DNA of 43,476 nucleotides, taken from a virus. Positions within the stretch are counted from its first letter, which is position 1; each line of letters opens with the position of its first letter. A model generated the notes under the pieces. That model was given only the letters and a program-made list of their open reading frames with translations. It ran no database searches and had not been told where the DNA came from. Shown one piece after another: positions 10,560 through 43,450 of this stretch. A program made the position numbers and the translations under genes. Where the stretch lies: positions 1 to 43,476 of IMG/VR virus record IMGVR_UViG_3300046836_000263, one strand, 5' to 3'.

Positions 10560-12967
10560 ATCCAGCACCCACTCCCCCGATAAATTGTCACCAAGTCGCC
10601 CACCGTGGGGGCAAGTAATTGAACACTAAAAACTGTCCCTGAAGCTGAAGCGCCCTCAACCGAAGCATGAATGTGGAATGGCATCTTTGTTGCTGTGCCG
10701 CCCAGCGTCCAGTTTGGAGCAATCTGAAAGGTAGTCGTAGTTGAGGCTTGGTCGGTCACTGCTCCATAAACTGAAGCTGTTGCTGCCGTGGCCATTGAAT
10801 AATTCGCGGTGACGTTCGTCGCTCCGTTAGTCGCCGTAAGCAGGTTCCACTGGTTTGAGGTTGCCGCCGTCGCCTGTCCGACTACTCCATCACAGTCAAG
10901 TTGCAGAGAATTAGCGACTAAAGGCAGATTGAATGTCCATGGAACGCCGCCGCCAGAACCGATTATTGTCGCTGCGGTGCAGCTTGCTACCGTTCCACTA
11001 GTTCCGCATGTCCAATCTGCTGTCAGTATTGCGCGGGTTCCCATGGGGGTAAAAACTGAATTGTTATTGTTGCATTCGAGGCCATGAAGTGTTTGGTCGC
11101 CATAGCAAACGTCCTGTCCTCCCGCCGCTGCCGTGGGGCTAAATTCTATGACATGATTGGCGAACTCAAATATATTCGACCAAGCCTTGTTTGAAGCTCC
11201 CAGTGGTTCTGCTCCATTGGTAGTTGGCTGAATTCCGGCTCCAGCGGTGAGGTTCAGAGTACCATTGGAATCAACATTTAAGACAACACAGGTCGCACTG
11301 GCATCAGAAAATGTGTAGTTGTTTTGGGCCTGCGGAAGAATAAAGCAGGTATGCTGAGTTGCTCCTATAGTCACATCCTGCGTGACGTGGCTGGAGATAT
11401 TATTACCATCCAAAAGCAGTTGAACATTGACGAAGTTGGCCCCACCGGGCATGTTCGTACACACGCCTCTTGCCCCTACGCCTGTTCCCAGCAGTGTGCT
11501 TCCTACGATCTTATGGCCGTATCCGTCATTTAAATTAGCATCGCATATTGTATTGGTTTCAAAATCAGCATTCGTAACGTGAATCTGCGTACCTGTGGCT
11601 CCGGCAACTACATTGATTCCGTTTAAGGAATCCGCCATTGTTGAATCCGTAAAATCGACAGTGCGCGAATTAGCTCCAGATATATTCCACCCATCGGCGG
11701 TGCCGGGGTTGATCGAAGCATTATTCCCACCGCAAAGATCGGCGGTCGAACCGACGAAATGGATCTGGCTTGGGATGCCGGAATTAGGCCCGTTCTTGAC
11801 AACATAACAATGGCTGCCAGCTTGATCCGTGTGGACATTATAAAAACTGATCATGAAGGCGTTATCTTGAATGACCCAACCTGAGCCCTTTGGCTGATTG
11901 CACTGAATATTCTCGAATTTCAGTGCGCGCATCTGTTGTGCTGTAGTTCCTCCATTGATGTCTACACAGTCACCAGCCGTTGCTCCACCTACGATTTTAT
12001 TGCCAATCATAGCGAAGTCTTTAAACGTGATACCTTCAACGGCATTGGCTGAGCCGAGAGACAGAACAAAGAAACTGCCGCCTGTCGATGTATTCGTGAG
12101 CGATGTGCCAGCCACTATATTGGCGTTTGTTCCCGGATCGTTCGGCCCACCCATTCCCTGCCCTTCAATCACTATCGGCTTTTGAATCGTGACAGGCCAG
12201 CCAGCGGCAGAGCAGTTGCCTTGCTGCAAAATTATCTTACCGCCGCCGGTAGGCAGAGCCGCATACGCTTCGGCAATTCCGCAGGTAGTTGAGCTGGCAA
12301 CGTAATTACAGGCATACTGAATTCCAGCAATGTTCTTCGGACACGTTGCCGTAAACGTTCCCCCTACCGAGACGTTCCCTGGTACCGAGAACGTCGCTGC
12401 CCCGCTTGAGCCTGAATGCGTGAGTGTGAATGTGGAAGTCGGGTTGCTTCCCGTGCCGAGCACATCCTGCCAGAGCCATTGGTCAACTGCCGAAGCTGCC
12501 CCAGTCCAGTAATTGCCTTGCACTTTCATATTGTTTGAGCTTTGATTGGCCCCTGAAGTCGCTGCCGTGCTCTTCTGTAACGTCAGATCGCCGGTATCAA
12601 TCAGCCCTGCAAAGGTCGAAAGGGGAGTGCTCCAAGTAATCGAATCCTGCGTCCAAATAGTTGCTCCGCCGCTGGCCACTGATCCCCGCAGCCTGAATTT
12701 ATAGCTTGCCGAAGTCAGATAGACCGTTGCCCGCCCGCCCGAATCTAAGAGGATTGGGTTACTATTTGCGGAAGTTCCGGTGCTCTCTGAATATGTCACC
12801 AGCGGCGTTGTGCTGCCAGCCGCGAACGTGTCGAGCTGGCATCCCGCGCATGGATTACCTGAGTTGTCCAGCAGTTGAATGTTGCTGTTGAGATACGGCG
12901 CAACCGTGGTTTGGGCCTGAGACATCCCGGCCAGCAGAATGAGCAAAAAGAATAGTTTGGTTTTCAT
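10550..12967 (-). CDS. Tailspike or receptor-binding protein with an N-terminal signal peptide (805 aa)
   Basis: Start taken at ATG 12967 (an in-frame ATG lies at 12985). Residues 1-19 look like a Sec signal peptide: M-K-T-K, a hydrophobic L-F-F-L-L-I-L-L-A-G core, then S-Q-A-Q. The next ~90 residues match the head-binding domain of podoviral tailspikes (D-N-S-G-N-P-C-A-G-C, then G-S-T-T-P-L-V-T-Y-S, then N-P-I-L-L-D-S-G-G-R-A). The middle is a pectate-lyase-like right-handed beta-helix with repeated short strands and N/T/S turns; the C-terminal ~150 residues are beta-rich. A signal peptide is unexpected on a virion protein. Position after the ejection genes matches P22 tailspike order. Confidence 0.85.
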   Translation of the reverse strand: MKTKLFFLLILLAGMSQAQTTVAPYLNSNIQLLDNSGNPCAGCQLDTFAAGSTTPLVTYSESTGTSANSNPILLDSGGRATVYLTSASYKFRLRGSVASGGATIWTQDSITWSTPLSTFAGLIDTGDLTLQKSTAATSGANQSSNNMKVQGNYWTGAASAVDQWLWQDVLGTGSNPTSTFTLTHSGSSGAATFSVPGNVSVGGTFTATCPKNIAGIQYACNYVASSTTCGIAEAYAALPTGGGKIILQQGNCSAAGWPVTIQKPIVIEGQGMGGPNDPGTNANIVAGTSLTNTSTGGSFFVLSLGSANAVEGITFKDFAMIGNKIVGGATAGDCVDINGGTTAQQMRALKFENIQCNQPKGSGWVIQDNAFMISFYNVHTDQAGSHCYVVKNGPNSGIPSQIHFVGSTADLCGGNNASINPGTADGWNISGANSRTVDFTDSTMADSLNGINVVAGATGTQIHVTNADFETNTICDANLNDGYGHKIVGSTLLGTGVGARGVCTNMPGGANFVNVQLLLDGNNISSHVTQDVTIGATQHTCFILPQAQNNYTFSDASATCVVLNVDSNGTLNLTAGAGIQPTTNGAEPLGASNKAWSNIFEFANHVIEFSPTAAAGGQDVCYGDQTLHGLECNNNNSVFTPMGTRAILTADWTCGTSGTVASCTAATIIGSGGGVPWTFNLPLVANSLQLDCDGVVGQATAATSNQWNLLTATNGATNVTANYSMATAATASVYGAVTDQASTTTTFQIAPNWTLGGTATKMPFHIHASVEGASASGTVFSVQLLAPTVGDLVTIYRGSGCWIHP

Positions 12968-13043
12968 TTTGTTTGGGAGTAGCATCTAAGGCGTTATGCT
13001 TGAATTCGCATTTATTCTGTTTTGTGGCTTTTACTTCTGCCAC

Positions 13044-13059
13044 CCCCTTGTGAAAGGGG
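13044..13059 (-). other. Stable short hairpin between the ejection gene and the tailspike gene
   Basis: Six perfect G/C-rich pairs (CCCCTT with AAGGGG) around a four-base loop, in the 113-bp gap upstream of the tailspike start. No U-run follows on either strand, so it is not a textbook terminator; it may tune expression or protect RNA ends. Confidence 0.4.
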
Positions 13060-13080
13060 CAGTCAATCTGATTTATTTCC

Positions 13081-14484
13081 TCACCGTTGATTACCCTGAT
13101 CGCCATTCACGGATTGGGCCAGTGAATTAACAAATTGCTGCACTTTGAAGTTAGCCATAGCGGGCGGGATTGTTCCTCTGCCCGCTTTGCTTATTGCAAT
13201 CGCCAGCTTTGATTGCAGCATGGGATCATCTAAAACCGTTTTCAGCGCATAGACGCCGAGACCAACCGCTGCCCCTGCCTCATGCCCGAATATGGCGCTG
13301 GTTCCACCCCCGGCCAATGCACCAGCAAATGGCCCGCCTAGTCGCGCGGGGATCGTCTGTCGATTTGCTGCCCGATTAACGGCCTTTTCAAGTGAGCCTT
13401 TCAGATCAAAAAACTGGCTCTCTTGCGCATTCAGGTTTTTGATTTCAGGGAAGTGCTGCTCCAATTCTTCTTTTAGCCCTCGCGCAAGGTTTTTCTCTGC
13501 TTCCACTCGCGCTGTGCTGGCCTCGCCATAAGCGCGGTCGCCAATCTGCTTATAGGTTCCCTGCTTAATGGCCTGAGCATCCTCCGCTCTGATAACTCCC
13601 GGCTTGGTATTGAGGAAATCATTGCCAACATCTGCAATCGTGTTGAGGTCTGCGGTTGGAGAGGCTTGCTTTGCAAATTGAGCTGCTGGCTTATTTAGAC
13701 GGGATGCAACGCTGAATTTATTGATTGGCGCATTCGGGTTGCTGGCAATCTGGGCTTTGACCTTGTTGTTTAGATCCTCCACCAGTCCATTGAGCTTTGA
13801 AACCCCCTCTTCACTGATAGGGATTGCCGCATTAAGGCCAGTACGTACCGCTGCAAGGTTTTCTGCTGGGGCATTTGTGGTGGAAGGCTTCAAGGCGCTC
13901 TGATACATCGCTTCAGCAACCTTTGGAGCTGCCCCGCGTATAAGGCTAGCTGCACCCTTTAGCGTTCCCTCTGCCACTTTTGGCCCTGCTACCGCTGTCG
14001 CTAAATCCGTAATCGCTCCGCTCTTGTCTTGTGGCTGTCCTGTTTCTCCAAGGTACCTGGATACAATATCGGCGCTCATTGGCCCCAATATCGGAACGGC
14101 TGAGGCCATATCGTGCATGTTGGCCATATGCTGATTTCCGTTGTATGCGTTGTTTGCCTGATCTGGCGATTGCGTTGAGGCTTGCGCTCTCAATTCTTGT
14201 GCCTTGACATGCTGCGCATACATCGGATCGGTCACAAGGCGTTTAAGCACCAAAGCACCCCGCCCCATTACCTTATCCGTGTACTGCTCATCTGGATTCT
14301 GCGGTTCTTTTGTGGCAGCGTCATACAGTGCGCCGGGAAGATGGATCAATCCACCACCAGCACGCTTAAGTGATGCCAATACGCCAGTATCCGGAGCAGC
14401 CGCCTTTTTAGGCTCTTCCACTGGAGTCCAAGCGGAAGCTGCCGAAGGCGTTTCATCTACAGGTGTCCAAGCTGAGGTTCCCAT
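13081..14484 (-). CDS. Ejection (pilot) protein candidate, P22 gp16 position (467 aa)
   Basis: ATG 14484 overlaps the previous stop (TAATG). The N-terminus repeats S-A-W-T-P-V-D/E twice, and the body is Ala-rich and helical with a Gly/Ala hydrophobic patch about residues 385-420 (G-G-P-F-A-G-A-L-A-G-G-G) that could enter a membrane. Composition and position (third in a trio before the tailspike) match the P22 gp7-gp20-gp16 ejection proteins. There is no catalytic motif. Confidence 0.65.
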   Translation of the reverse strand: MGTSAWTPVDETPSAASAWTPVEEPKKAAAPDTGVLASLKRAGGGLIHLPGALYDAATKEPQNPDEQYTDKVMGRGALVLKRLVTDPMYAQHVKAQELRAQASTQSPDQANNAYNGNQHMANMHDMASAVPILGPMSADIVSRYLGETGQPQDKSGAITDLATAVAGPKVAEGTLKGAASLIRGAAPKVAEAMYQSALKPSTTNAPAENLAAVRTGLNAAIPISEEGVSKLNGLVEDLNNKVKAQIASNPNAPINKFSVASRLNKPAAQFAKQASPTADLNTIADVGNDFLNTKPGVIRAEDAQAIKQGTYKQIGDRAYGEASTARVEAEKNLARGLKEELEQHFPEIKNLNAQESQFFDLKGSLEKAVNRAANRQTIPARLGGPFAGALAGGGTSAIFGHEAGAAVGLGVYALKTVLDDPMLQSKLAIAISKAGRGTIPPAMANFKVQQFVNSLAQSVNGDQGNQR

Positions 14485-15968
14485 TATTGCTCCAGTTTCC
14501 ATCCCGCAGGCAGGGCCGTTCCCGCTACTGCTTGATGTAGCTTGCCCTGTGGATCACGCGCCTGAATCATTCCCTTTGCGGGCTGATTGCCGAAGTTTGG
14601 TTGTGCCTGTGTGCCTTTTTCGTATTGATCTTGACGCTGCTGTTTCTTGCTGGCCATGAGAGCCTTGTAAGCTGTAACTGCCCCCGCCATCTGCTGCGGG
14701 CTGGCATTGTCCGGCATCGTGCCGCCCTGCTTATTCAGTTCCGTGTCTGTAATGTGGCCGCTGGTTAGGGCCTTTGTTACTTCCGCCGTATAAGCATTTC
14801 GGATGATCTGGAAATTTGTTGCCTTGTCAGAGCCGAACTGCACTCCAAGTTGATTGCCAATGGAGTTTAAGGCGCGCACATTGCCATTGTTCATCGCATC
14901 CGCTGCGGATTTCAGCAAGTCAGCGTGGGCAATCGCCGTATTGTAGGCATTCAACTCATCTGAAACCTTGCCCGAAGTGAAGGATTTCTTTACGCCTTGC
15001 TCAATAGCAAAATCGCCGGAGTTGAACTGTGGATTGATCGACTTTACTTCTTTGGCGAACGCTTCTTTTACTGCCATGGGTGTACGCGGGGAAATCACAT
15101 CGCCCCATTTCATCTGGCCCGCAGCAACCGCTTGAGCCATGGCTGACGGCTGCCCACCTTCGCCCTTTGGCACCTGATTATTCAGGTTGAAATTCATCTG
15201 CGGAACAAGAGTCGCTTTGTATTTCATGAAATCTGAAACACTCTTGCCCTTGTTTTTGTTCATCCAATCCGCTGCTTCCTGAGCATCTAACGGAACGCCC
15301 GGAGCAAGACCTTGCTTCTGGTAAAAGGCCATTTCTGCTTTGATTTTGCCTGTATTGGCCTGTACCTCTCCCGTTCGCGCGGTCGCTTCCCCGGCCTGAG
15401 CTTGATTCTTTGCCCCTTCTGCCTGTTTCGCGGCTTCTTCCACCAGCTTGCTATGAGTCTTTAGGCCAATGCCGATATTCTTGAACTGATCGTCGCCCGG
15501 ATACTGCGGAGGCATCTGGGAAACATCCACGCCCATTTTCTGCAAGCCTTGAAGCTGCTGCTGATAGACAATCGGTTTTTGGTCTGCTGGGGCTTTGTCC
15601 ACTACATCATGAGCGCCCTGCATAGCATCTGATTGCTGAAGGGCGATTGATCCTTGCTGCTGTACCAAAGCAGCGGCTTTTTGCTTGAGATCCAAAGCAT
15701 GTTGCTGGGCTGCCTGAAATGCCGTAGGAGAGACTTTCCCGGCAATATCCTGAAGCGTTTTATCGACATCGCCCTTGTTCCGTCCGTAAGCTTCGCGGAT
15801 GGTCGTATCATCCTGCATAGCTCTTTGTTTCTGTTGAATCTCTAAATCGTTCTTCTGATTCTCCTGCCCAGCCGCTCTGAGCTGTGCTACTTGACGCATC
15901 AGGTCAAGAGCATTCGGCCCCGGTTCTGGGATCTTGAGATTATTAGCTGCTAAGGGAATAGAAGCCAC
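14484..15968 (-). CDS. Ejection protein candidate, P22 gp20 position (494 aa)
   Basis: Long, Gln/Ala-rich, almost fully helical protein with low-complexity coiled-coil stretches (Q-K-Q-R-A-M-Q, K-Q-A-E-G-A-K-N-Q-A-Q-A-G-E) and a C-terminal G-K-L-H-Q-A-V-A-G-T-A-L-P-A-G-W segment that recurs at the ends of phage internal proteins. Its length (P22 gp20 is about 470 aa) and location between the gp7-like and gp16-like genes support the role. It starts one base after the neighbouring stop. Confidence 0.65.
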   Translation of the reverse strand: MASIPLAANNLKIPEPGPNALDLMRQVAQLRAAGQENQKNDLEIQQKQRAMQDDTTIREAYGRNKGDVDKTLQDIAGKVSPTAFQAAQQHALDLKQKAAALVQQQGSIALQQSDAMQGAHDVVDKAPADQKPIVYQQQLQGLQKMGVDVSQMPPQYPGDDQFKNIGIGLKTHSKLVEEAAKQAEGAKNQAQAGEATARTGEVQANTGKIKAEMAFYQKQGLAPGVPLDAQEAADWMNKNKGKSVSDFMKYKATLVPQMNFNLNNQVPKGEGGQPSAMAQAVAAGQMKWGDVISPRTPMAVKEAFAKEVKSINPQFNSGDFAIEQGVKKSFTSGKVSDELNAYNTAIAHADLLKSAADAMNNGNVRALNSIGNQLGVQFGSDKATNFQIIRNAYTAEVTKALTSGHITDTELNKQGGTMPDNASPQQMAGAVTAYKALMASKKQQRQDQYEKGTQAQPNFGNQPAKGMIQARDPQGKLHQAVAGTALPAGWKLEQ

Positions 15969-17378
15969 TTATCCACCTCCAAACATAGCCAGCAGAGCAG
16001 ACAGTGAATTTGTCCCATTACTCACTGCTCCATTGATCGCATTGGCTGAGTTGATGTACCCGGAAGCCGTTGCCGCGCCTGCGTTATTGATGTTGTTTCC
16101 GATTTGCTGGCCTGAAGTGAGCAGAGTATTAGAAACATTGTTTGCCGTTCCCAAGCCTGCATTGCTCAAGTTGTTTGCTGATACCTGCCCTTGCCCTGAG
16201 AGGGCTGACAGGCGGTTAAACAGGTTCGTCTGATCGTTTGTGAATGTGTTGTAATTTGTGTTGTAGTTTTGCAGAGCGCGATTATAGACGTTCCCGTACT
16301 CGCCTGAAGCAGCGTTCTGGTTGTAGTCAGAGAGAGCTTTAGCCGTTCCACCGGTAAGCAGCCCACCTCTGGCAGCAGCAGAGTTCTGTAGAGCGTTTTG
16401 CCCTTGCTGAAGTCGGAACTGATAACCGGGGTCGTTTTGTTCTGTTACCCCTGTCGGGCTGTTGAACGTCTGATTCCAGCCCTGTGCGAGTGAACCGAAA
16501 GAGCCATTGTTCGGGCCGCCGCCGAAATTAATCCCTCCAGTGGGGGCTTGATCGCCCAAAAATCCGCCAGTTTGTCCAAAATCAGCACCGTTTCCGGTTT
16601 GCGGTACTTGCCCCGGTGCTCCGCTGGCGTTCTGCACGTTGCCAGTGGTTTGCAGATTGCCCATCCCGTTCGGAAATGGTGAAGGATCGCCAAGATTTCC
16701 AGAACTGCCAATTGTTCCAAGCCCCGGCTGCGGAGGTTCTGGCTGGGGTTGCCCATTAGCTCCTAACAGGCCTGCCGCTCCACTAGTTGTTCCGCCTGAC
16801 ATGATTGGCGGTCGCATCTGAATCTGATAGGGGTTAGTTCCCGGTGAGGTAATAGGTGGGTTCATGTTGAACTGATTCCCTCCGCCGCCAGTCTGCAGAA
16901 CCTGTCCCGGTAATCCGTTGGGATTACCGTTAGGCGTTCCACCTGAAGGCCCGAATGGATTCTGCCCAGGTTGAAGCATGGCTGCATTAGCCTGTATGGG
17001 CATCGGGCCGCCATTCCCTCCTCCTCGTAACGCCCGGAGTGAATTCAAAGCATTCGGGTCAAACTGGCTGCCATCTAATGCGCCCCCTGAAGGCGTTTGC
17101 GGGGCATTGGGATTAATCACGCCTGCGGGAAGTCCCTGAGCTGGATTCAGGCCCATGAGGTACCCCAAACGGCTATTTGCTGAAACTCCAGTGTTGTAAT
17201 AAGGTGCAAGCAGATTCAGGGAATTCCCATACTGCTGCTTGGAGAAATTCAGCGCATCTGTAGCGTCCTGATGCTGAAGATTGGCAGCATTGTTCGCTGC
17301 ATTAGCTTGAGTATCAGCCGCATGGTTGGCCGCATTGCTCCCGAAAATCCCTTGAAAGATTGACCCTACTATGCCCAT
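15969..17378 (-). CDS. DNA transfer (ejection) protein, P22 gp7 position (469 aa)
   Basis: N-terminal glycine-rich hydrophobic segment G-I-V-G-S-I-F-Q-G-I-F-G-S, then A/N-rich helices, a ~180-residue low-complexity G/P/N/Q linker (about residues 75-290), and a conserved-looking C-terminal part with N-D-P-G-Y-Q-F-R-L-Q-Q-G, R-G-G-L-L-T-G-G-T and repeated N-N tracts ending in A-M-F-G-G-G. This layout is typical of proteins annotated as phage DNA transfer proteins in podoviruses. It overlaps the GNAT-like gene by ten bases. Confidence 0.7.
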   Translation of the reverse strand: MGIVGSIFQGIFGSNAANHAADTQANAANNAANLQHQDATDALNFSKQQYGNSLNLLAPYYNTGVSANSRLGYLMGLNPAQGLPAGVINPNAPQTPSGGALDGSQFDPNALNSLRALRGGGNGGPMPIQANAAMLQPGQNPFGPSGGTPNGNPNGLPGQVLQTGGGGNQFNMNPPITSPGTNPYQIQMRPPIMSGGTTSGAAGLLGANGQPQPEPPQPGLGTIGSSGNLGDPSPFPNGMGNLQTTGNVQNASGAPGQVPQTGNGADFGQTGGFLGDQAPTGGINFGGGPNNGSFGSLAQGWNQTFNSPTGVTEQNDPGYQFRLQQGQNALQNSAAARGGLLTGGTAKALSDYNQNAASGEYGNVYNRALQNYNTNYNTFTNDQTNLFNRLSALSGQGQVSANNLSNAGLGTANNVSNTLLTSGQQIGNNINNAGAATASGYINSANAINGAVSNGTNSLSALLAMFGGG

Positions 17379-33807: not shown

Positions 33808-34362
33808 TTACGTTGCTTTCTCCTTTGCTGGCGGGGGAGGCTCGGCTGGGCGGTAATCTTGTGGGTTTTCTAATTGGCAAATCACCTGTCCGATTTCTGC
33901 CAGTGTCAAATCTAGCGGATCGCCAGAATCGCACCCTGAGCCGTCTATGTCATCTGGGGCAATCGCATGTTTGCGCGCCAAATCGTAGATTGACTTCTGC
34001 CAGCGGGCCTGCTCTTTGTCCACTACTTTGTCAATCAGGCAACCGTCATGCTCAAAGTAATCGAGCGAACCAGTTTTGCACCCTTCACATTTTTGGGGCT
34101 GGGGAGGCTGGAGAGAACGGCGCACAGCTTCACGTACAATTTCCATCCAATTAACATTGGACTTCGTTGTGGAAAGCACTTCGCATATCTCTCTTGCTAG
34201 CTTCTCTACATCAGCCGCGCCCGCCAACTCTTTGCCGATTTCTCGGGCGTGCTCATGGATTCCTTCCAGTACGGCGTGAATCTCCGCATCGCATATGCCG
34301 TCCTGATTCCAATAGAACTCGCACTTCTCTAAGATTGCAGCGATTCTCTCTTGTCGCGTCAT
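33808..34362 (-). CDS. Hypothetical protein with a Cys pair (184 aa)
   Basis: Helical, acidic protein; K-C-E-G-C-K-T near residue 92 and later C107 and C144 may bind a metal. C-terminal P-A-E-P-P-P-P-A-K-E-K-A-T is a flexible end. GGAGACGGAGAG precedes the start. No recognised domain; it is likely soluble. Located between the tiny zinc-ribbon gene and the 77-bp promoter gap. Confidence 0.6.
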   Translation of the reverse strand: MTRQERIAAILEKCEFYWNQDGICDAEIHAVLEGIHEHAREIGKELAGAADVEKLAREICEVLSTTKSNVNWMEIVREAVRRSLQPPQPQKCEGCKTGSLDYFEHDGCLIDKVVDKEQARWQKSIYDLARKHAIAPDDIDGSGCDSGDPLDLTLAEIGQVICQLENPQDYRPAEPPPPAKEKAT

Positions 34363-34397
34363 CTCTCCGTCTCCTTAGACTGCCCCGCCCCGCCAAA

Positions 34398-34559
34398 TTA
34401 TTCCCATCTTCCGGGGCCTGGAACAGTGGTCTTTTCTACTTTTGAGCGGATGCCAATTTCCCAGCATTTAGGACACCCATTTGTGTACTCCGCATAACCT
34501 GCTCCGCAAGTAACACACTCCCATGGAGACTTAGGTTCCGGCATATCAGATTGCGTCAT
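34398..34559 (-). CDS. Tiny zinc-ribbon protein (53 aa)
   Basis: ATG 34559 overlaps the stop of the preceding gene (ATGA). C15-V-T-C18 and C29-P-K-C32 form a complete four-Cys zinc ribbon (W-E-C-V-T-C-G-A-G-Y then N-G-C-P-K-C-W). A short tail follows. One of a dozen small CxxC proteins on both strands. Confidence 0.65.
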   Translation of the reverse strand: MTQSDMPEPKSPWECVTCGAGYAEYTNGCPKCWEIGIRSKVEKTTVPGPGRWE

Positions 34560-35305
34560 TTCGTTTCCTTTCCGTGCGGTTGCGGCTCCCCGGCTGATGG
34601 GGTGAAGAATTGGGCCTCAAGCATTGCAATCATCTGCTCACGGTCTGAAACTTCGTCCAGATCCCATTGCGAAGCGGTTTTCCAGAGCAACGATACGAAT
34701 TCGCGGCAGCGTGGACTAGGCTTCAGCCCTGCCAGCATTGCGTCCAGCTTGCTCAACAGCCAATCGCGCTGCGCGCGCACATTCATATTGTCCCACTCGT
34801 GAGGTTCAACTATTTCTGCATCACGGATTGATTGCGGCAATTCGCCAAAAGTTCCTGAGTTTGTGGGTGTCGGCCCTTCGGCGGGAGAGGCCGCGCCTGC
34901 AAACGATTCCTTCCCGCAATAACACATGTCAGTTCCGGGGCGGCGTTCATGCACCATTTCGTCACATCTCTGCGAGTTGAATGGGAAAGCATGTCTTTGA
35001 GCCTGATCCGTGGCCCGCGTCCCTTCGCTTGGCAGGGCCGTCTTTGCTTTAGCAGAACAGTTGCAATCTTCTTTTCCTCTTGATGAGAGGGAAATACATG
35101 TGATGTCGTGAGGTTCGCTTGGCAGGGAGGGGCCGGACTCGTCATCAGAATCAGTACATAAATCGACCTGATTAGCGTCGTGAAGGAACCCGCTCACGAG
35201 TTCCATCTTCCCGCTATCGCCGTCAAATGCACGTACTTCAGCCGATGGATTCAACCCGTGAGCGATTAGCTCTTGAAGCTGCTTTATCATTCCTTCGACG
35301 GTCAC
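34556..35305 (-). CDS. Mosaic hypothetical protein (249 aa)
   Basis: GTG 35305 overlaps the Tad2 stop (GTGA) with GGGGAG upstream, so the extended start at 35482 inside the Tad2 gene is rejected. Residues 1-55 look folded (M-I-K-Q-L-Q-E-L-I-A-H-G-L-N-P, E-V-R-A-F-D-G-D-S-G); the middle is low-complexity with L-P-S-E repeats and Cys clusters (E-D-C-N-C-S and M-C-Y-C-G); the end is helical. It appears built of joined short modules. Function unknown. Confidence 0.55.
   Translation of the reverse strand: MTVEGMIKQLQELIAHGLNPSAEVRAFDGDSGKMELVSGFLHDANQVDLCTDSDDESGPSLPSEPHDITCISLSSRGKEDCNCSAKAKTALPSEGTRATDQAQRHAFPFNSQRCDEMVHERRPGTDMCYCGKESFAGAASPAEGPTPTNSGTFGELPQSIRDAEIVEPHEWDNMNVRAQRDWLLSKLDAMLAGLKPSPRCREFVSLLWKTASQWDLDEVSDREQMIAMLEAQFFTPSAGEPQPHGKETK
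35024..35037. repeat. Dispersed 14-bp repeat, copy A
   Basis: TTCGCTTGGCAGGG occurs here and at 35114-35127; related sequences with CTTGGCAGGGAGCC or GGGCAGGGAGCC are at 35606-35619 and 35713-35724. In the coding strand they give L-P-S-E/L-P-S-P/L-P-T-Q peptides in linkers. Confidence 0.55.
35114..35127. repeat. Dispersed 14-bp repeat, copy B
   Basis: Identical to the sequence at 35024-35037. Both fall inside the low-complexity part of the 249-aa mosaic protein. Confidence 0.55.
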
Positions 35306-35559
35306 GCGATTACTCCCCAATCTTCCGCGAGCACATCCGTTTGCGATGCCAGCCACGGAACAAATGCTCCGTCTGCCGTTTTCATTCCGATCCATGGAAG
35401 TAGTCGGTTGCCAACCAGACCATAATCGTAGGGAGCCGAAGAACCTAATCCCCATTGGTCGGCTGTGACCAAACCAAGCCACATATCTTTACCATTCCAG
35501 CCAGAGCGTGATACCTTCTGACCTTGTTTGAGTGCTTCTATTGCCTGTCCGAAGTTCAT
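35302..35559 (-). CDS. tad2: Tad2 (DUF2829) anti-Thoeris protein (85 aa)
   Basis: The full DUF2829 pattern is present: F-G-Q-A-I-E-A-L-K-Q-G-Q-K-V-S-R at residues 3-18, G-W-N-G-K-D-M-W-L at 20-28, I-G-M-K-T-A-D-G at 57-64 and V-P-W-L-A-S-Q-T-D-V-L-A-E-D-W at 67-81. DUF2829 proteins include Tad2, shown to sequester the cyclic ADP-ribose isomer signal of Thoeris defence. The ATG follows AAGGAG, so it is very likely translated on its own, although the same frame is open far upstream with no stop. Next gene starts by GTGA overlap. Confidence 0.85.
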   Translation of the reverse strand: MNFGQAIEALKQGQKVSRSGWNGKDMWLGLVTADQWGLGSSAPYDYGLVGNRLLPWIGMKTADGAFVPWLASQTDVLAEDWGVIA

Positions 35560-37002
35560 GGTTGTTTCTCCTTTTTGAAATTTATTGATTTGCGACGGCG
35601 CGGGGCTTGGCAGGGAGCCGCGCTCACGTTGATTGGTTCCCAAGCTGTTAGTAAAGCAGGCTTCACAGTGACCATTCAAAGGCACACGATGCAGGCACTC
35701 TTCCGGTTGCGTGGGCAGGGAGCCGGGAAGGGCCGCTAGGGTGTCTGCTATTTGAGCGGCTTTTTCTGTGTTCGTGTTGCGATTGTCTGATGCGCACCAT
35801 CTGAGGAAATTGATTGCTTCCTCAATGCATTGCGGCTGGTGATCGCCTGAAACCCATCCTCGAACTCCACCGCGCAACTGTTCATAGTTCCCCGCGCCAA
35901 AACCTTGCACGTCTGGCCCTTGCGTCCCATCCGATTCCAGCGGTAAATGTAAATTTGCATTGTTATCCTTCCGCCCCTCCACGCTCCGGACTGGAGAGCC
36001 GCCCACGCGCAATGCCTGAGCTTTAGCGAATGGAGCCAATATGCACATGCGACCGTATAGCGATAAGCGGTCGTCTTCGTCAGACTTCGGCACATTCCAG
36101 CGGTCAAGCTGGTCAATGCAATATTTGTAGTTGCGCACTATCTCATGCAAATCAACGCCATCTTTAGCGGCCTCATCGAGCACATGCTTGGTAGACGGTT
36201 GAATGGTTACGGTTGTTTCCCCCGGCGCATTCTTCTGCCCCTGAGCGGCCACAGCGGGTTTGTTTGGCTCAGAGTCATCAGCTTTCCAGTTCCTGCAAGA
36301 GTTCTCAAGTGGATGAGCGGTTTGCTGTAATGCCTTCCCGTCCTCTGTTGGTTTTCCAAGCCAGTGCGGAGTGCCGCAGTTGCCCCGTAAGGGATTGACG
36401 CAACGCTTTCTAGTCGTGAGGACAAGGGAATCAATTTCGTGCGATTTGGGTATTGTCCAGCCCCCCAATTCTCTTACCCACGCATCACGGTACATTTGCC
36501 AATGATGCTTCCATGATTCGGCATCCTTTTTTGCTTCGTTTAGTTGACCCTGAAGCTCGGCCAATTTGTCTTCTAGTGGATTGCGCTCCCCGCCTTCCCC
36601 GGAAAGGGGCGCGGCCTCGGGCTCACAATTTATCCCACAATAGCAGCTACAGTCGCCCTGCGGATATTCACAACCTACATGACATACTTCCCAAAGCCCT
36701 TTACCTTCAGGTAGCTTGCCTAGCGGATGCTTCTTGCATTGGGTCGCTCTCGTCTCCCTGGAAACCGGAATGCTCACGCCTTCTGGAATAGATATCTCTA
36801 AGTGGTGCGCGCTTCCGCAGTCGTCCGGCCAGTCGATTTTCAGTTTTGTGGCCGGCTCCCTGGAAACGGAAGGGGCCGCAAGCTGTCGCAGATCAGCAGC
36901 GATGGCTTGCCAATCGAACTTGTCAGCAAACTGATAACCGGCAACCGTTGTACGATGCCGCATTGCAATCTCTGTTAGAATTTCCGTCGTTATGTCGCTC
37001 AT
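35302..37002 (-). CDS. Long mosaic reading frame (566 codons) ending in the Tad2 domain
   Basis: ATG 37002 overlaps the upstream stop. Residues 1-40 look folded (T-T-V-A-G-Y-Q-F-A-D-K-F-D-W-Q-A-I-A-A-D-L); then two V-S-R-E segments, a Cys cluster (Y-P-Q-G-D-C-S-C-Y-C-G), an L-E-D-K-L-A-E-L-Q helix, a C-H...C-E-A-C-like part at about 455-468, and finally the Tad2 domain (482-566). A small gene at 35748-35960 is nested in another frame and itself looks real. The frame may be one mosaic protein, or two or three genes lying in phase without a stop. I treat the part before 35560 as hypothetical. Confidence 0.45.
   Translation of the reverse strand: MSDITTEILTEIAMRHRTTVAGYQFADKFDWQAIAADLRQLAAPSVSREPATKLKIDWPDDCGSAHHLEISIPEGVSIPVSRETRATQCKKHPLGKLPEGKGLWEVCHVGCEYPQGDCSCYCGINCEPEAAPLSGEGGERNPLEDKLAELQGQLNEAKKDAESWKHHWQMYRDAWVRELGGWTIPKSHEIDSLVLTTRKRCVNPLRGNCGTPHWLGKPTEDGKALQQTAHPLENSCRNWKADDSEPNKPAVAAQGQKNAPGETTVTIQPSTKHVLDEAAKDGVDLHEIVRNYKYCIDQLDRWNVPKSDEDDRLSLYGRMCILAPFAKAQALRVGGSPVRSVEGRKDNNANLHLPLESDGTQGPDVQGFGAGNYEQLRGGVRGWVSGDHQPQCIEEAINFLRWCASDNRNTNTEKAAQIADTLAALPGSLPTQPEECLHRVPLNGHCEACFTNSLGTNQRERGSLPSPAPSQINKFQKGETTMNFGQAIEALKQGQKVSRSGWNGKDMWLGLVTADQWGLGSSAPYDYGLVGNRLLPWIGMKTADGAFVPWLASQTDVLAEDWGVIA
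35748..35960 (-). CDS. Nested conserved phage protein (70 aa) in an alternative frame
   Basis: ATG 35960 with GGAAGG upstream. R-M-G-R-K-G-Q-T-C-K-V-L-A-R-G-T-M-N-S-C (residues 10-29), then V-E-F-E-D-G-F-Q-A-I-T-S-R-N-A-L-R-K, matches a small phage protein pattern ('GRKGQxCxVLxRGxxNSxxVEFEDGxxxxTSRNxLR') that I recognise. It lies wholly inside the 566-codon frame, in a different phase, so one of the two must be non-standard. Function unknown. Confidence 0.6.
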   Translation of the reverse strand: MQIYIYRWNRMGRKGQTCKVLARGTMNSCAVEFEDGFQAITSRNALRKQSISSDGAHQTIATRTQKKPLK

Positions 37003-37190
37003 TGGCTCACCTGTGTTTTCTTTCGGCGTTTCCTTCTATTGGCATTGCGTTCTTCTCTCTCACGTCTTCCCTTGCCAGCAAAATAATCCCTTTTGGCCTC
37101 AGCAAATTGTTCCGATGTCATTACCCCAAAACAGGAAATTAGAAGCTGCACACATTCCGTCAGGGTAGCCTTCATTTTTAGTTTCAGCAC
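36999..37190 (-). CDS. Basic helical protein (63 aa)
   Basis: GTG 37190 with GGAAGG upstream, overlapping the end of the 48-aa gene; an in-frame ATG at 37217 is an alternative. L-T-E-C-V-Q-L-L-I-S-C-F then T-S-E-Q-F-A-E-A-K-R-D-Y-F-A, and a very basic end R-R-K-R-R-K-K-T. Looks nucleic-acid-binding by charge only. Confidence 0.5.
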   Translation of the reverse strand: MLKLKMKATLTECVQLLISCFGVMTSEQFAEAKRDYFAGKGRREREERNANRRKRRKKTQVSQ

Positions 37191-37330
37191 TCTCGCCACC
37201 TTCCACAAAATCTGCAAGATTCACGCGGTTTATCATTGAACATGCCAGCAACCCAAGCGTGTGGCTTGTTATAATTCTTTCCCTTCGGACCAGCTGCTTT
37301 GCATAAATCGCCTTCAGGTTGGGCGCTCAT
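37184..37330 (-). CDS. Tiny Cys-containing protein (48 aa)
   Basis: ATG 37330 overlaps the previous stop. The end reads C-R-F-C-G-R-W-R-E-C (residues 39-48), with an earlier D-L-C-K near residue 8, so four Cys are available. It overlaps the next GTG gene. Coding is supported by coupling and the Cys pattern. Confidence 0.5.
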   Translation of the reverse strand: MSAQPEGDLCKAAGPKGKNYNKPHAWVAGMFNDKPRESCRFCGRWREC

Positions 37331-37614
37331 CCCTCAACCTTCCTTCCGCGCTCGTGGATAGCTGCTGCCTTGCAATCAGAATGGCCGGGTAAACTTAAGC
37401 AAGAATGAAGCCACTTTTCTCCGATTAGTCTTGCAGGCGACCAATAAAAATCTGCCGCGCATTCAGAGCAAATGATTTTGGCGATGGCATCTCTTTCCTG
37501 CTTCCGGGACAGAGAGGATTCGGATTCGGCAAAGGCCACAACTTTGTCCTCTGACCAGCCGATTTCGCCCCTGCTCGATAAAAACTTCCGCGCTCTCTGT
37601 CTTACGCCGCTCAT
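37327..37614 (-). CDS. Hypothetical protein with a C-S-E-C knuckle (95 aa)
   Basis: I-I-C-S-E-C-A-A-D-F-Y-W-S-P (about residues 47-60), with C72 and C81 near H-S-C-L-S and D-C-K-A-A, a possible single zinc site. N-terminus has S-G-V-R-Q-R-A-R-K-F-L. ATG overlaps the previous stop. Function unknown. Confidence 0.6.
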   Translation of the reverse strand: MSGVRQRARKFLSSRGEIGWSEDKVVAFAESESSLSRKQERDAIAKIICSECAADFYWSPARLIGEKWLHSCLSLPGHSDCKAAAIHERGRKVEG

Positions 37615-37807: not shown

Positions 37808-38530
37808 CTATCTCTTTCCCTCTGCTGCGCCGGCCAACTTATTGAACTCAATCGCCCATACCCAAGGGTTTTTCTCCCAAGCGTATTTGCCGTCTTCGCG
37901 TTTGGAGTTGATCGAATCCCAGAGCCGCATGAAATCAGTTCTTGCCGGTACGCTTCCGGGTCCGAGAATGCGACCGAGTTCCTTGATGTGTGGCGCGGCA
38001 TCGCTGATTTGAAGATTGGCAACATCCTCAGCCGTGTAGACCTCAGCTTTGCAGCCTTCCGCGATTGCATCCTCTTCGCTGATGTCCTGCACCCGCTCAA
38101 CCTGTACGCTCACGATTTCCAGCGTCAAACGTGAGGCCCAGCGCGGCATGTGGATAGAAGGCTTGAATACCTGTCCGCTTGGGCCGTTGTAGCTCGCCCG
38201 ATAAACGCATCCGTGTGGGCCTTTATTCGGCAATGCTTTATCGCAAGCGGCGCACACGCAGCGATTCCACGTTTCCCGCACCCACAGCCGATCTCCCGGC
38301 TTGCCGTAGGGACAATTTCGCAGATGGCCTACGCGCTCAGTTTCCGGGTAATGGAACCATACTGCCCACGGATCAGCAGCAGCCGATGGATCACAAATGG
38401 AATGAACCTGCCATGAGGGTAGAGGCTTAACCACTCGCCGCGTCTGCGTCTTCCTGCCATCCATCACGGCTCTCACCATCGGGCCTGAAAACAGAATCGG
38501 CTTCTCTTGAACTGCTACAGAATTACTCAT
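37808..38530 (-). CDS. ASCH-domain-like phage protein (240 aa)
   Basis: K-P-I-L-F-S-G-P-M-V-R-A-V-M-D-G-R-K-T-Q-T-R-R (about residues 10-32) and G-K-P-G-D-R-L-W-V-R-E-T-W (about 76-88) are the signature of phage ASCH proteins; C-terminal D-F-M-R-L-W-D-S-I-N and N-P-W-V-W-A-I-E-F complete the domain. ASCH folds bind RNA or modified nucleobases; the function in phages is not settled. ATG 38530 follows GGAGCAC. Confidence 0.8.
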   Translation of the reverse strand: MSNSVAVQEKPILFSGPMVRAVMDGRKTQTRRVVKPLPSWQVHSICDPSAAADPWAVWFHYPETERVGHLRNCPYGKPGDRLWVRETWNRCVCAACDKALPNKGPHGCVYRASYNGPSGQVFKPSIHMPRWASRLTLEIVSVQVERVQDISEEDAIAEGCKAEVYTAEDVANLQISDAAPHIKELGRILGPGSVPARTDFMRLWDSINSKREDGKYAWEKNPWVWAIEFNKLAGAAEGKR

Positions 38531-38714
38531 TTTCAAAGTGCTCCTGTGCTTCTCTAGCTATCTGCATCGCCAATTCGTGATTCAGCAAGTAGCGGTACTT
38601 CGTGTGCAAATGGATAACAAAGGCATTCCAGCGACAGGCGCGATCTACCTCTCGGCTGTTCTCTTCCTGCTGCCTCGCTATGCGGTCTAACGCTCTCTGA
38701 CCTGATTCAAGCAT
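38523..38714 (-). CDS. Helical hypothetical protein (63 aa)
   Basis: Amphipathic helices throughout (R-A-L-D-R-I-A-R-Q-Q-E-E-N, then M-Q-I-A-R-E-A-Q-E-H-F). A single Cys and several His (V-I-H-L-H-T-K-Y). Overlaps both neighbours. No family recognised. Confidence 0.55.
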   Translation of the reverse strand: MLESGQRALDRIARQQEENSREVDRACRWNAFVIHLHTKYRYLLNHELAMQIAREAQEHFENE

Positions 38715-41524: not shown

Positions 41525-41934
41525 GCTGTCTCCTTCAGTGACTTCTTTGTGACCGTGATCGGCTTCGGGTTGTGAATCTTTTCATGGCATCCATGGCAGC
41601 TTGCGATGTTGCAATCGGGACTAAAGCAGTCGCATTTGTTAGGCCCGTGCCGCCTGTGGCTCCATTCCGTTGCAACCCATGGGCAGCGGTAACTAGCCTG
41701 TACTAGTTCATTACTTCCTGAAATATTGCGAACCCATGAAAGTACTCGCTCTTCGCACCTTCCCTTGGCCCGTTCAAAGACTTCGGCTCTGCGCTTCTCT
41801 CGCGCTGCTCCGTAAAGCCTCACCCTTTTGTGGCCAGTAATATGCTCTGTGCGCTCGGAGTGGACTACTCTGGGCGTTCTACGCTTGCGCCGAACAGGCT
41901 TCCTACGTGCTCTTGTGCGAGTAGTGCGGATCAT
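41521..41934 (-). CDS. HNH nuclease-like protein (137 aa)
   Basis: Arg-rich N-terminus (residues 1-20 nearly all R/K/T) then E-K-R-R-A-E-V-F-E-R-A-K-G-R-C-E (about 47-62), T-E-W-S-H-R-R-H-G-P-N-K-C (about 89-101) and S-C-H-G-C-H-E-K-I-H (about 113-122). The C...H-H...C-x2-C-H-x3-H arrangement is an HNH pattern. The acidic or amide residue between the halves is D109/N110. Possible role in packaging or DNA processing. Confidence 0.7.
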   Translation of the reverse strand: MIRTTRTRARRKPVRRKRRTPRVVHSERTEHITGHKRVRLYGAAREKRRAEVFERAKGRCEERVLSWVRNISGSNELVQASYRCPWVATEWSHRRHGPNKCDCFSPDCNIASCHGCHEKIHNPKPITVTKKSLKETA

Positions 41935-42686
41935 GGAACGCTTATCCCTTCGTCTCTGAGCATCGCCATCATTTCGTCATCGGTGTACTTGCCTGCCTGC
42001 TTAACGCTCTGGCGTAGCTTTTCTTCCAGCGATTGGCCAGAAACAAATCGGTCTGCATCTGCCAGAAGTTCAACCAGAAATTGCTCTATTTTGGCTTCCA
42101 TGTCGGCAATGTATTTGTCGTCTCTTGGAAGGCGCACAAGAAAGCTGTTAACGCCATCAGCAAGACGCGGATCATGGGCGAAAAAATCCCACCACTCGAC
42201 AGGCTTTCCACGCTCACAGCAGGCCATATTGAGAAACATTTGCGGCTTGTGTTCTTCCGGCACTACGCCTGCAATCTTCCATTCAATGAATGTTTCCGTT
42301 TCAGGCACCTTTATTTCAACCCCGCCAACGTCTCCCACCAATCCATCCGGCGAGGCTCCGCAGCGGTCTATCCGCGGGTGCAGGACAAAGCCGCAGCGTT
42401 CCACTATGTAGCCCGTTTCCATCTCGTAGGCAGTCCGGGCCAATGGTTCATTATCCAAACCAAACTGCATGGCTTCCGTAACGAAGTGGTCAGCAGATCG
42501 TCCGCGTAATATTTCTGCCAGAAGTTCACGGCGGTATCTCTTTCGGGCAGCAAGTTCGCCTTCGCCCCGCTTGCGGGTGGCAATCACATCGGCAACCCGC
42601 GATGCCGTTACATGGCCAGCCCTAGCCTTCAGCCATTCCGGTGAATTTTGGTCATGATCTAAGAAGTTGGGCGGATAGACTTTCAT
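41931..42686 (-). CDS. YqaJ-family viral recombinase (exonuclease, 251 aa)
   Basis: R-A-G-H-V-T-A-S-R (residues 22-30), Q-F-G-L-D-N-E (74-80), G-A-S-P-D-G-L-V-G (110-118) and V-E-I-K-V-P (123-128) are the lambda-exonuclease-like active-site motifs; D114, E124 and K126 are the catalytic residues. It makes 3' single-stranded ends for the annealing protein encoded next to it. Its start overlaps the ERF stop by four bases, so the two are coupled. Confidence 0.92.
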   Translation of the reverse strand: MKVYPPNFLDHDQNSPEWLKARAGHVTASRVADVIATRKRGEGELAARKRYRRELLAEILRGRSADHFVTEAMQFGLDNEPLARTAYEMETGYIVERCGFVLHPRIDRCGASPDGLVGDVGGVEIKVPETETFIEWKIAGVVPEEHKPQMFLNMACCERGKPVEWWDFFAHDPRLADGVNSFLVRLPRDDKYIADMEAKIEQFLVELLADADRFVSGQSLEEKLRQSVKQAGKYTDDEMMAMLRDEGISVP

Positions 42687-43450
42687 TCCAAATCCTTTTT
42701 CTTGGCATCCTTGGCAGCGGTCAGCCTGCGGATTGCCTCATAGTTGTTGGCATCTTTTGCCACCTTAACGGCGGCATAGAAAATCTTGTGCAGTTCGCCT
42801 ATAGTTGAGCAGTTGCCGATCCATTCCAACCGTTCGTTGAGGTCTTCTACTGGCTTGACTGGCTCTGCTCCGTTGCCGTCATCGTCATCTTCCCCAATGG
42901 CAATGTTGAAGATCATCTTGAGCAGGTAGCGCATCCCATAACTGCCAGCAGAGCCTCTGGCATGGGTTTTGGTCATCACATCGCCACCCTTGGCACCCTT
43001 GCCGTCTGCGGGCATGTCGTAGTAGTAAACCCGCGTGTACCGCCCGCGTGAGACGTGGCAGACAACACGCACCATTTCAATCTCAGGCGACACGCTTGGA
43101 TCAGTGCTGAAAGAAAGCGAGAATTTGTGCTTCGTGTAAATCGGACGGAGCACAGCGTCCAGCTTGTCGTAAGTCGCATACCTGCTTTTGGTCTGAGTAT
43201 TCGACATGTTTGGAGCCACGCGGCCTAGCTCCATCTGCACAGCGTTCATGGCCTCGTTAAAGTCCAGCTTGGCCGTCTCTTCCAATTCCTTGAAGTGCAT
43301 CCGCTGAAGGATTTCGAGCTGCTCAACTTGTCCGCGCTCAAGGGCAATCTGCATCAGGGCAAGCGTGGTTACAGGTGCCAGCGCATCCTCTTTCGGTTTC
43401 CAGTTGCCATCAGTTTTAGGTATAAGTTCGGGCTGAATCGTTGCGTTCAT
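42683..43450 (-). CDS. erf: ERF-family single-strand annealing protein (255 aa)
   Basis: Y-A-T-Y-D-K-L-D-A-V-L-R-P-I (residues 91-104) and A-R-G-S-A-G-S-Y-G-M-R-Y-L-L-K-M-I-F-N-I (165-183) are the core ERF motifs. It anneals complementary ends for recombination or genome circularisation. GGAGG lies nine bases before ATG 43450. Acidic E-D-D-D-D segment (about 187-191) and Lys-rich tail follow. Confidence 0.95.
   Translation of the reverse strand: MNATIQPELIPKTDGNWKPKEDALAPVTTLALMQIALERGQVEQLEILQRMHFKELEETAKLDFNEAMNAVQMELGRVAPNMSNTQTKSRYATYDKLDAVLRPIYTKHKFSLSFSTDPSVSPEIEMVRVVCHVSRGRYTRVYYYDMPADGKGAKGGDVMTKTHARGSAGSYGMRYLLKMIFNIAIGEDDDDGNGAEPVKPVEDLNERLEWIGNCSTIGELHKIFYAAVKVAKDANNYEAIRRLTAAKDAKKKDLE

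Follow-up and report, generated by a model that had tools for sequence, protein, structure and literature searches.

The origin of mosaic phage genomes has been the subject of a long-standing debate, with homologous recombination at short boundaries on one side and illegitimate joining on the other, and at most mosaic junctions such boundary sequences could not be found (PMC3945230, PMC3029335). For conserved boundary sequences at mosaic junctions, homologous recombination has been proposed in work that is cited in PMC3029335, and the domain mosaicism of phage proteins has been described through the comparison of protein profiles, an approach that is agnostic on mechanism (Smug et al. 2023, PMC10684548). 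Members of the Tad2 family, for their part, sequester gcADPR, His-ADPR or cyclic dinucleotides (PMC12043709, PMC13299392). Here we describe a 43,476-nucleotide stretch of viral DNA (IMG/VR record IMGVR_UViG_3300046836_000263, positions 1-43,476; hereafter the window, to which feature coordinates refer), where a gene of the Tad2 family lies within a 3.5-kb block composed of short anchors and of cassettes between them. The anchors are shared, in order, reading phase and near-identity, with an otherwise unrelated phage, and the cassettes between them are unrelated in the two. This structure had been missed by the initial annotation of the window.

The second phage, IMGVR_UViG_3300046529_000300 (G001; 61,970 bp, of which the first 60,000 bp were compared), differs in kind from the window phage: it encodes a PolA-type polymerase, a Dda-type helicase and a Sak4-like annealing protein of its own. 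At E ≤ 0.01 it matches the window only in 17 colinear patches and in one isolated 25-bp stretch outside the block. All patches except P4 (262 bp, 90% identical) are short (20-61 bp; 16 of 17), 95-100% identical and mostly GC-rich, with a total of 9 mismatches in 511 bp (1.8%) and a G+C content of 69%, against 49% between patches. The DNA that separates the patches aligns no better than shuffles, about a dozen intervals being fully replaced, and no comparable chain of patches was found at the other loci compared. Every patch (17/17) lies in the same reading phase in both phages, and the differences in interval length, which reach 281 bp, are divisible by three for 14 of the 16 intervals (p 1.2e-5); the two other intervals each hold a stop and restart, one of which is the Tad2 stop. 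Detection of the patches by sequence similarity favours identical stretches, but neither the phase test nor the contrast at third positions with P4 (see below) depends strongly on this. It was also observed that the block has nearly the same total length in both phages (3507 bp in the window, 3516 bp in G001) despite the variation of single intervals, and that P7 to P9 span 276 bp in both; the near-equality of the block lengths may be due to chance (rough estimate 1-2%).

A pattern of this kind could potentially be explained if selection had preserved the anchors, as functional peptide linkers or as DNA signals, in a block that both phages have had in common for a long time, its modules having diverged fast without being swapped. 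The anchor peptides, mostly rich in Pro, Gly, Ser and Glu and all in phase, do resemble inter-domain linkers, and three anchors carry gene boundaries formed by a Shine-Dalgarno (SD) sequence and ATGA. However, mismatches at third codon positions number 2 of 167 in the anchors and 13 of 87 in the module P4 (p 2.5e-5). Since silent positions hardly differ in the anchors, unlike in P4, anchor identity is not merely protein conservation: selection on the peptides would not protect such positions, and the anchors are therefore either freshly exchanged or constrained as DNA. In addition, the gap DNA is at shuffle level and variable in length, the slots hold different known families (Tad2 in the window, a Dam-type methyltransferase in G001), and direct repeats occur at clean insertions, all of which make a block preserved by selection on its linkers quite unlikely.

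The divergence of P4 also bears on the idea that the whole block passed between two phage lineages once, recently, and was then altered independently in each by illegitimate insertions, deletions and substitutions, short islands being spared by chance. Such a history would account for islands that are colinear and near-identical, and illegitimate recombination is a proposed origin of most mosaic boundaries (PMC3029335). Nevertheless, P4, the only large module to be retained, is 9.5% diverged, compared with 1.8% for the other patches, which argues that the islands are not just what random events spared; moreover, phase was kept in all of the islands although about a dozen intervals were fully replaced, and we consider a single transfer unlikely. 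All 25 mismatches in P4 fall within its middle 196 bp, between identical ends of 28 bp and 38 bp (p 5e-4), the pattern that would result if the module had been exchanged for a diverged version between these ends.

The possibility of an assembly chimera of two phages from one community deserves mention because contigs related to the window backbone were found under adjacent metagenome numbers, and one stems from the metagenome of G001 itself. An artefact of this type would be expected to generate one or few junctions, and the two phages instead share many runs of only 19-26 bp, consistent in order and phase and separated by unique, unrelated sequence; a chimera thus appears highly improbable. 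Contigs L103, L099 and L100, of neighbouring metagenome numbers, encode a terminase 46-47% identical to that of the window, and the common metagenome of L103 and G001 suggests that both phage types may co-occur.

The explanation that we regard as probable is that positions 34101-37607 form a block of several cassette slots, in which phage recombinases exchange modules at the anchors, and that free Tad2 is the main product of its gene. In this view the anchors stay in place, in order and in phase, and what lies between them is replaced: in some slots a complete small gene with a ribosome-binding site of its own (Tad2 is one), in others an in-frame protein module. Swapping would occur by homologous annealing at the short anchors, performed probably by Erf/RecE in the window phage and by the Sak4-like protein in G001; we infer both the causal role of recombination at the anchors and the action of these enzymes there. 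Sak4 proteins are single-strand annealing proteins (PMC5928155), and an Erf/Exo pair has been reported to be as efficient as Red in E. coli (PMC3945230). The longest exact runs in most anchors (19-26 bp) are close to the minimal pairing length of Red-beta, 23-27 bp (PMC3945230), and three clean insertions, of 90 bp and 105 bp in the window and of 138 bp in G001, are bordered by direct repeats of 10-14 bp. These run lengths and repeats are consistent with the use of the boundaries by homologous recombination.

Several points weigh against this explanation. The anchors are known from two metagenome phages only: exact-pattern scans with three anchors revealed no third carrier in IMG/VR, and a scan of cultured genomes yielded three isolated matches to one anchor, about the number expected by chance. 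No donor or intermediate was seen, and recombination itself was not observed. A 156-bp in-frame insertion located directly before anchor A in G001 carries no clear direct repeat. Lastly, because three anchors include gene starts, some of the conservation of anchor DNA may serve translation.

Table 1. Features of the window discussed in the text, by position.
Feature	Coordinates	Strand	Description
Anchor-and-cassette block	34101..37607	(-)	17 colinear patches in common with G001 12505-16020
Anchors P1, P2	37497..37607	(-)	G001 patches; P1 37588-37607, P2 37497-37528
Anchor P3	37325..37362	(-)	38/38 identical; AIHERGRKVEG*; ATGA boundary
Open frame ending in Tad2	35302..37002	(-)	566 codons from ATG 37002; moderate SD AGGTGA
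Patch P4	36620..36881	(-)	Anchor K (28 bp identical), 196-bp module, 38 bp identical; Cys-rich; residues 41-127
Anchor A	36580..36621	(-)	42/42 identical; PEAAPLSGEGGERN
Module, residues ~155-254	36263..36518	(-)	Homologous to phage contig G002 (79% at amino acid level); edge 11 bp from anchor B
Anchor B	36218..36252	(-)	34/35 identical; VAAQGQK(N/D)APG
Anchor C	35971..36012	(-)	Contiguous in window; split in G001 by 138-bp insert, 10-bp direct repeat
Small gene, other frame	35815..35961	(-)	Own SD GGAAGGA and ATG; MQIYIYRWNRMGRKGQ...; starts 10 bp after anchor C
Anchor D	35714..35736	(-)	23/23 identical; AALPGSL
105-bp in-frame cassette	35621..35725	(-)	TQPEECLHRVPLNGHCEACF...; 12-bp direct repeats CGGCTCCCTGCC at ends; absent in G001
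Anchor D2	35590..35620	(-)	30/31 identical; GSLPSPAPSQ; 30 bp upstream of Tad2 ATG
Tad2-family gene	35302..35559	(-)	ATG 35559-35557, stop ends 35302; 85 amino acids; own SD
Second mosaic open reading frame	34556..35293	(-)	Begins right after Tad2; carries anchors E, E2, F, G
Anchor E	35114..35137	(-)	24/24 identical; SGPSLPSE
90-bp in-frame cassette	35038..35127	(-)	14-bp direct repeats CCCTGCCAAGCGAA at ends; G001 lacks it and has an unbroken anchor
Anchor E2	35015..35037	(-)	23/23 identical; LPSEGTR
Anchor F	34866..34897	(-)	31/32 identical; GAASPAEGPT
Anchor G	34556..34616	(-)	59/61 identical; SD and ATGA gene boundary
Anchor H	34359..34392	(-)	34/34 identical; SD and ATGA gene boundary
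Anchor P16	34187..34226	(-)	39/40 identical; AGAADVEKLARE
Anchor P17	34101..34124	(-)	24/24 identical; RRSLQPP
RecE-like exonuclease	41931..42686	(-)	PHROGs; candidate recombination machinery
Erf-type annealing protein	42683..43450	(-)	PHROGs; candidate recombination machinery

The identity of the 85-residue protein as a member of the Tad2 family is strongly supported by profile, by sequence matches to solved structures and by its modelled fold. The PF11195 profile is matched over its entire length (1-73 of 73) with 95.3 bits (cut-off 25; E 3.3e-27), and a search of PDB sequences identifies SPO1 Tad2 (8sme, E 8e-18). An AlphaFold2 model built from 48 relatives has a mean pLDDT of 86, low only around residues 39-43; compared by Foldseek, it matches 8smf and 8smg with TM-scores of 0.74-0.80, its best 24 matches all being Tad2/AcrIIA7 structures (SPO1 Tad2, ModTad2 and HgmTad2/AcrIIA7; 0.71-0.80), and no significant match was obtained outside this group. 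The 17 columns that are invariant in the 48 relatives, which include G20-W21-N22-G23, P68-W69 and D80-W81, are all present in the window protein. The start codon is preceded by the SD AAGGAG with an 8-nt spacer (AAAAAGGAGAAACAACC-ATG). The initial annotation had proposed a DUF2829/Tad2 protein with its own AAGGAG-ATG, to be checked by structure prediction against known Tad2, and both the assignment and the predicted fold are borne out. By homology, the protein would sequester a Thoeris-type nucleotide signal.

The same annotation had raised the possibility of more anti-defence genes around Tad2, a suggestion that finds no support here: in the window's block, Pfam, PHROGs and NCBIfam recognised no other anti-defence family. 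The slots of the window hold Tad2, a small gene related to one of a Rhizobium phage, Cys-rich modules and a module in common with the contig G002, with cassette edges at 10, 11 and 30 bp from anchors (Table 1). Tad2 itself stands between two anchors, and the same slot of G001 runs on in frame from anchor D2 into an unrelated module. Between P3 and P4, G001 carries a Dam-type DNA methyltransferase (phrog_111, E 1e-11; just under the Pfam cut-off; L086:4394-4807), and the window has other small open reading frames there. Both this methyltransferase and Tad2 may have to do with host defence, but a pair of examples does not suffice to call the block a defence island. A 242-residue protein encoded at 37808-38536 belongs to the phage family phrog_874 (E 2e-67), which has no known function.

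Tad2 constitutes the last 85 codons of a 566-codon open frame (Table 1), whose upstream 481 codons are free of stops and mosaic, with Cys-rich stretches such as CKKH..C..C..C.CYC and CLHRVPLNGHCEAC; the earlier description of an in-phase, uninterrupted, mosaic and Cys-rich upstream frame is thus accurate. Given the local base composition, a run of 566 codons would stay open by chance with a probability of about 5e-12. A codon-usage score trained on the phage's structural genes is weak for this frame, yet it is the best of the six frames in most stretches. In the module of residues 155-254, the substitutions that separate it from G002 fall 6/7/39 at codon positions 1/2/3, a pattern that shows purifying selection in this frame and, with it, that the frame has been translated in the history of the module. 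With this selected module upstream, and with no stop before the end of Tad2, a long Tad2 fusion is possible.

A different picture emerges further downstream, where codons ~345-393, between anchors C and D, overprint the small gene in another frame. This gene is 62% identical to the stand-alone EVC28_030 of Rhizobium phage RHph_I1_23 and is conserved in Rhizobium and Microcystis phages. Since part of it overprints a different small gene, the 566-codon frame is a patchwork and not a single ancestral protein. The 122-codon frame that contains the small gene (35748-36116) overlaps the 566-codon frame in another phase, and neither has stops.

The architectures of 80 Tad2 relatives from IMG/VR were also compared. 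In-frame extensions of 50-137 residues, with no SD at the Tad2 start, are found in 46 of the 80; none has an extension of more than 200 residues, and none combines its own SD with an in-phase extension of at least 50 residues. The window gene therefore seems to be a stand-alone Tad2 that is in phase by happenstance, and the free 85-residue protein, favoured by its own SD-ATG, is likely to be the main product. A longer polypeptide with Tad2 as its tail may be made as well: the fusion beside a free form suggested by the initial annotation is possible on account of the selected module and the open frame, and is disfavoured by the dedicated start and by the lack of any comparable relative. It could be argued instead that the frame as a whole encodes one dedicated modular protein whose regular C-terminal domain is Tad2, the internal SD-ATG being incidental. 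The improbable length of the open frame, the selection on module 155-254 and the frequency of in-frame fusions among relatives speak in favour of this view; the overprinting of a real gene, the absence of an SD before Tad2 and of more than 137 extra residues in all 46 known fusions, and the corresponding slot of G001, which has no Tad2, speak against it, and it is judged doubtful at best. A usual Tad2 fusion with an N-terminal phage domain of ~75 residues (phrog_1048, phrog_872 type) was considered and rejected, given the SD and the differing relatives; PHROG profiles match only about 5-11 linker residues upstream of the Tad2 domain. A structure model of the whole 566-residue product, made without relatives, was uninformative (pLDDT 36).

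Searches for relatives of the remaining parts of the block yielded little. Two IMG/VR contigs, G001 and G002, match the upstream 481 residues, for which no relative was found in 50,697 phage records; residues 41-254 had no match in genomes, no relatives were found for the second mosaic open reading frame, and a 434-residue open reading frame of G001 had none beyond G001 itself. Plasmid and phage DNA searches recovered essentially the Tad2 gene only, the one addition being a match in one Rhizobium phage to the small gene that follows anchor C, and no anchors were detected in contigs related to the window backbone, which are mostly short fragments. Hairpin or attC-like anchors were rejected after 13 anchors displayed no folding excess (mean z 0.12), and a repeat search of 31.5-43.5 kb gave no long near-identical pair, no search aimed at a diversity-generating retroelement having been made. 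Within P4, a 12-bp direct repeat, GTTTCCAGGGAG, occurs twice, 102 bp apart (36754-36867; SVSREP / PVSRET), and could delimit an additional in-frame cassette. Two codons before anchor H the window has a TAA stop (34398-34400), yet the anchor keeps the phase in which G001 reads on, as GAGQSKETER*; a recent nonsense change or a cassette that ends early may be the reason.

Two unrelated phages share 17 boundary sequences within 3.5 kb, the majority of them intragenic, and one slot is occupied by an anti-defence gene. The block offers a concrete and testable system for the trade of counter-defence genes and protein modules between phages, and its anchors could be used as probes for more cassettes in metagenomes. 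A more far-reaching proposal, that at least two unrelated phage kinds share a dedicated multi-slot exchange platform of about 17 phase-locked anchors in fixed order, where recombinases plug in anti-defence genes or modules while the frame is kept, can be put forward only tentatively. The model of cassette exchange at anchors, for its part, predicts the existence of metagenome contigs with these anchors.

Compared with described systems, the block resembles the conserved boundary sequences of temperate-phage mosaic junctions, in that short near-identical DNA lies beside unrelated, replaced segments; it differs in having 17 such sequences in 3.5 kb, most inside open reading frames, phase-preserving and between otherwise unrelated phages. 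With the domain mosaicism of Smug et al. (2023; PMC10684548) it has in common unrelated proteins with shared fragments and in-frame module exchange, although what the window and G001 share are short linkers, seen at the DNA level, that separate unrelated modules. Integron gene cassettes are likewise small and ordered, with short sites between them, but the window's anchors have no hairpin signal, are each specific to a position and accept insertion in frame inside open reading frames. The Tad2 gene, finally, is like SPO1 gp34.65, ModTad2 and HgmTad2/AcrIIA7 (PF11195, formerly DUF2829) in its full profile, structure-sequence match and fold, and like known Tad2 genes it is small and stand-alone, with a ribosome-binding site. 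From known Tad2 fusions of the phrog_1048 and phrog_872 type, which have a conserved in-frame N-terminal extension and no SD, it differs on both counts, and what sets it apart from known Tad2 is its place between conserved anchors, as the in-phase tail of a long and mosaic open frame.
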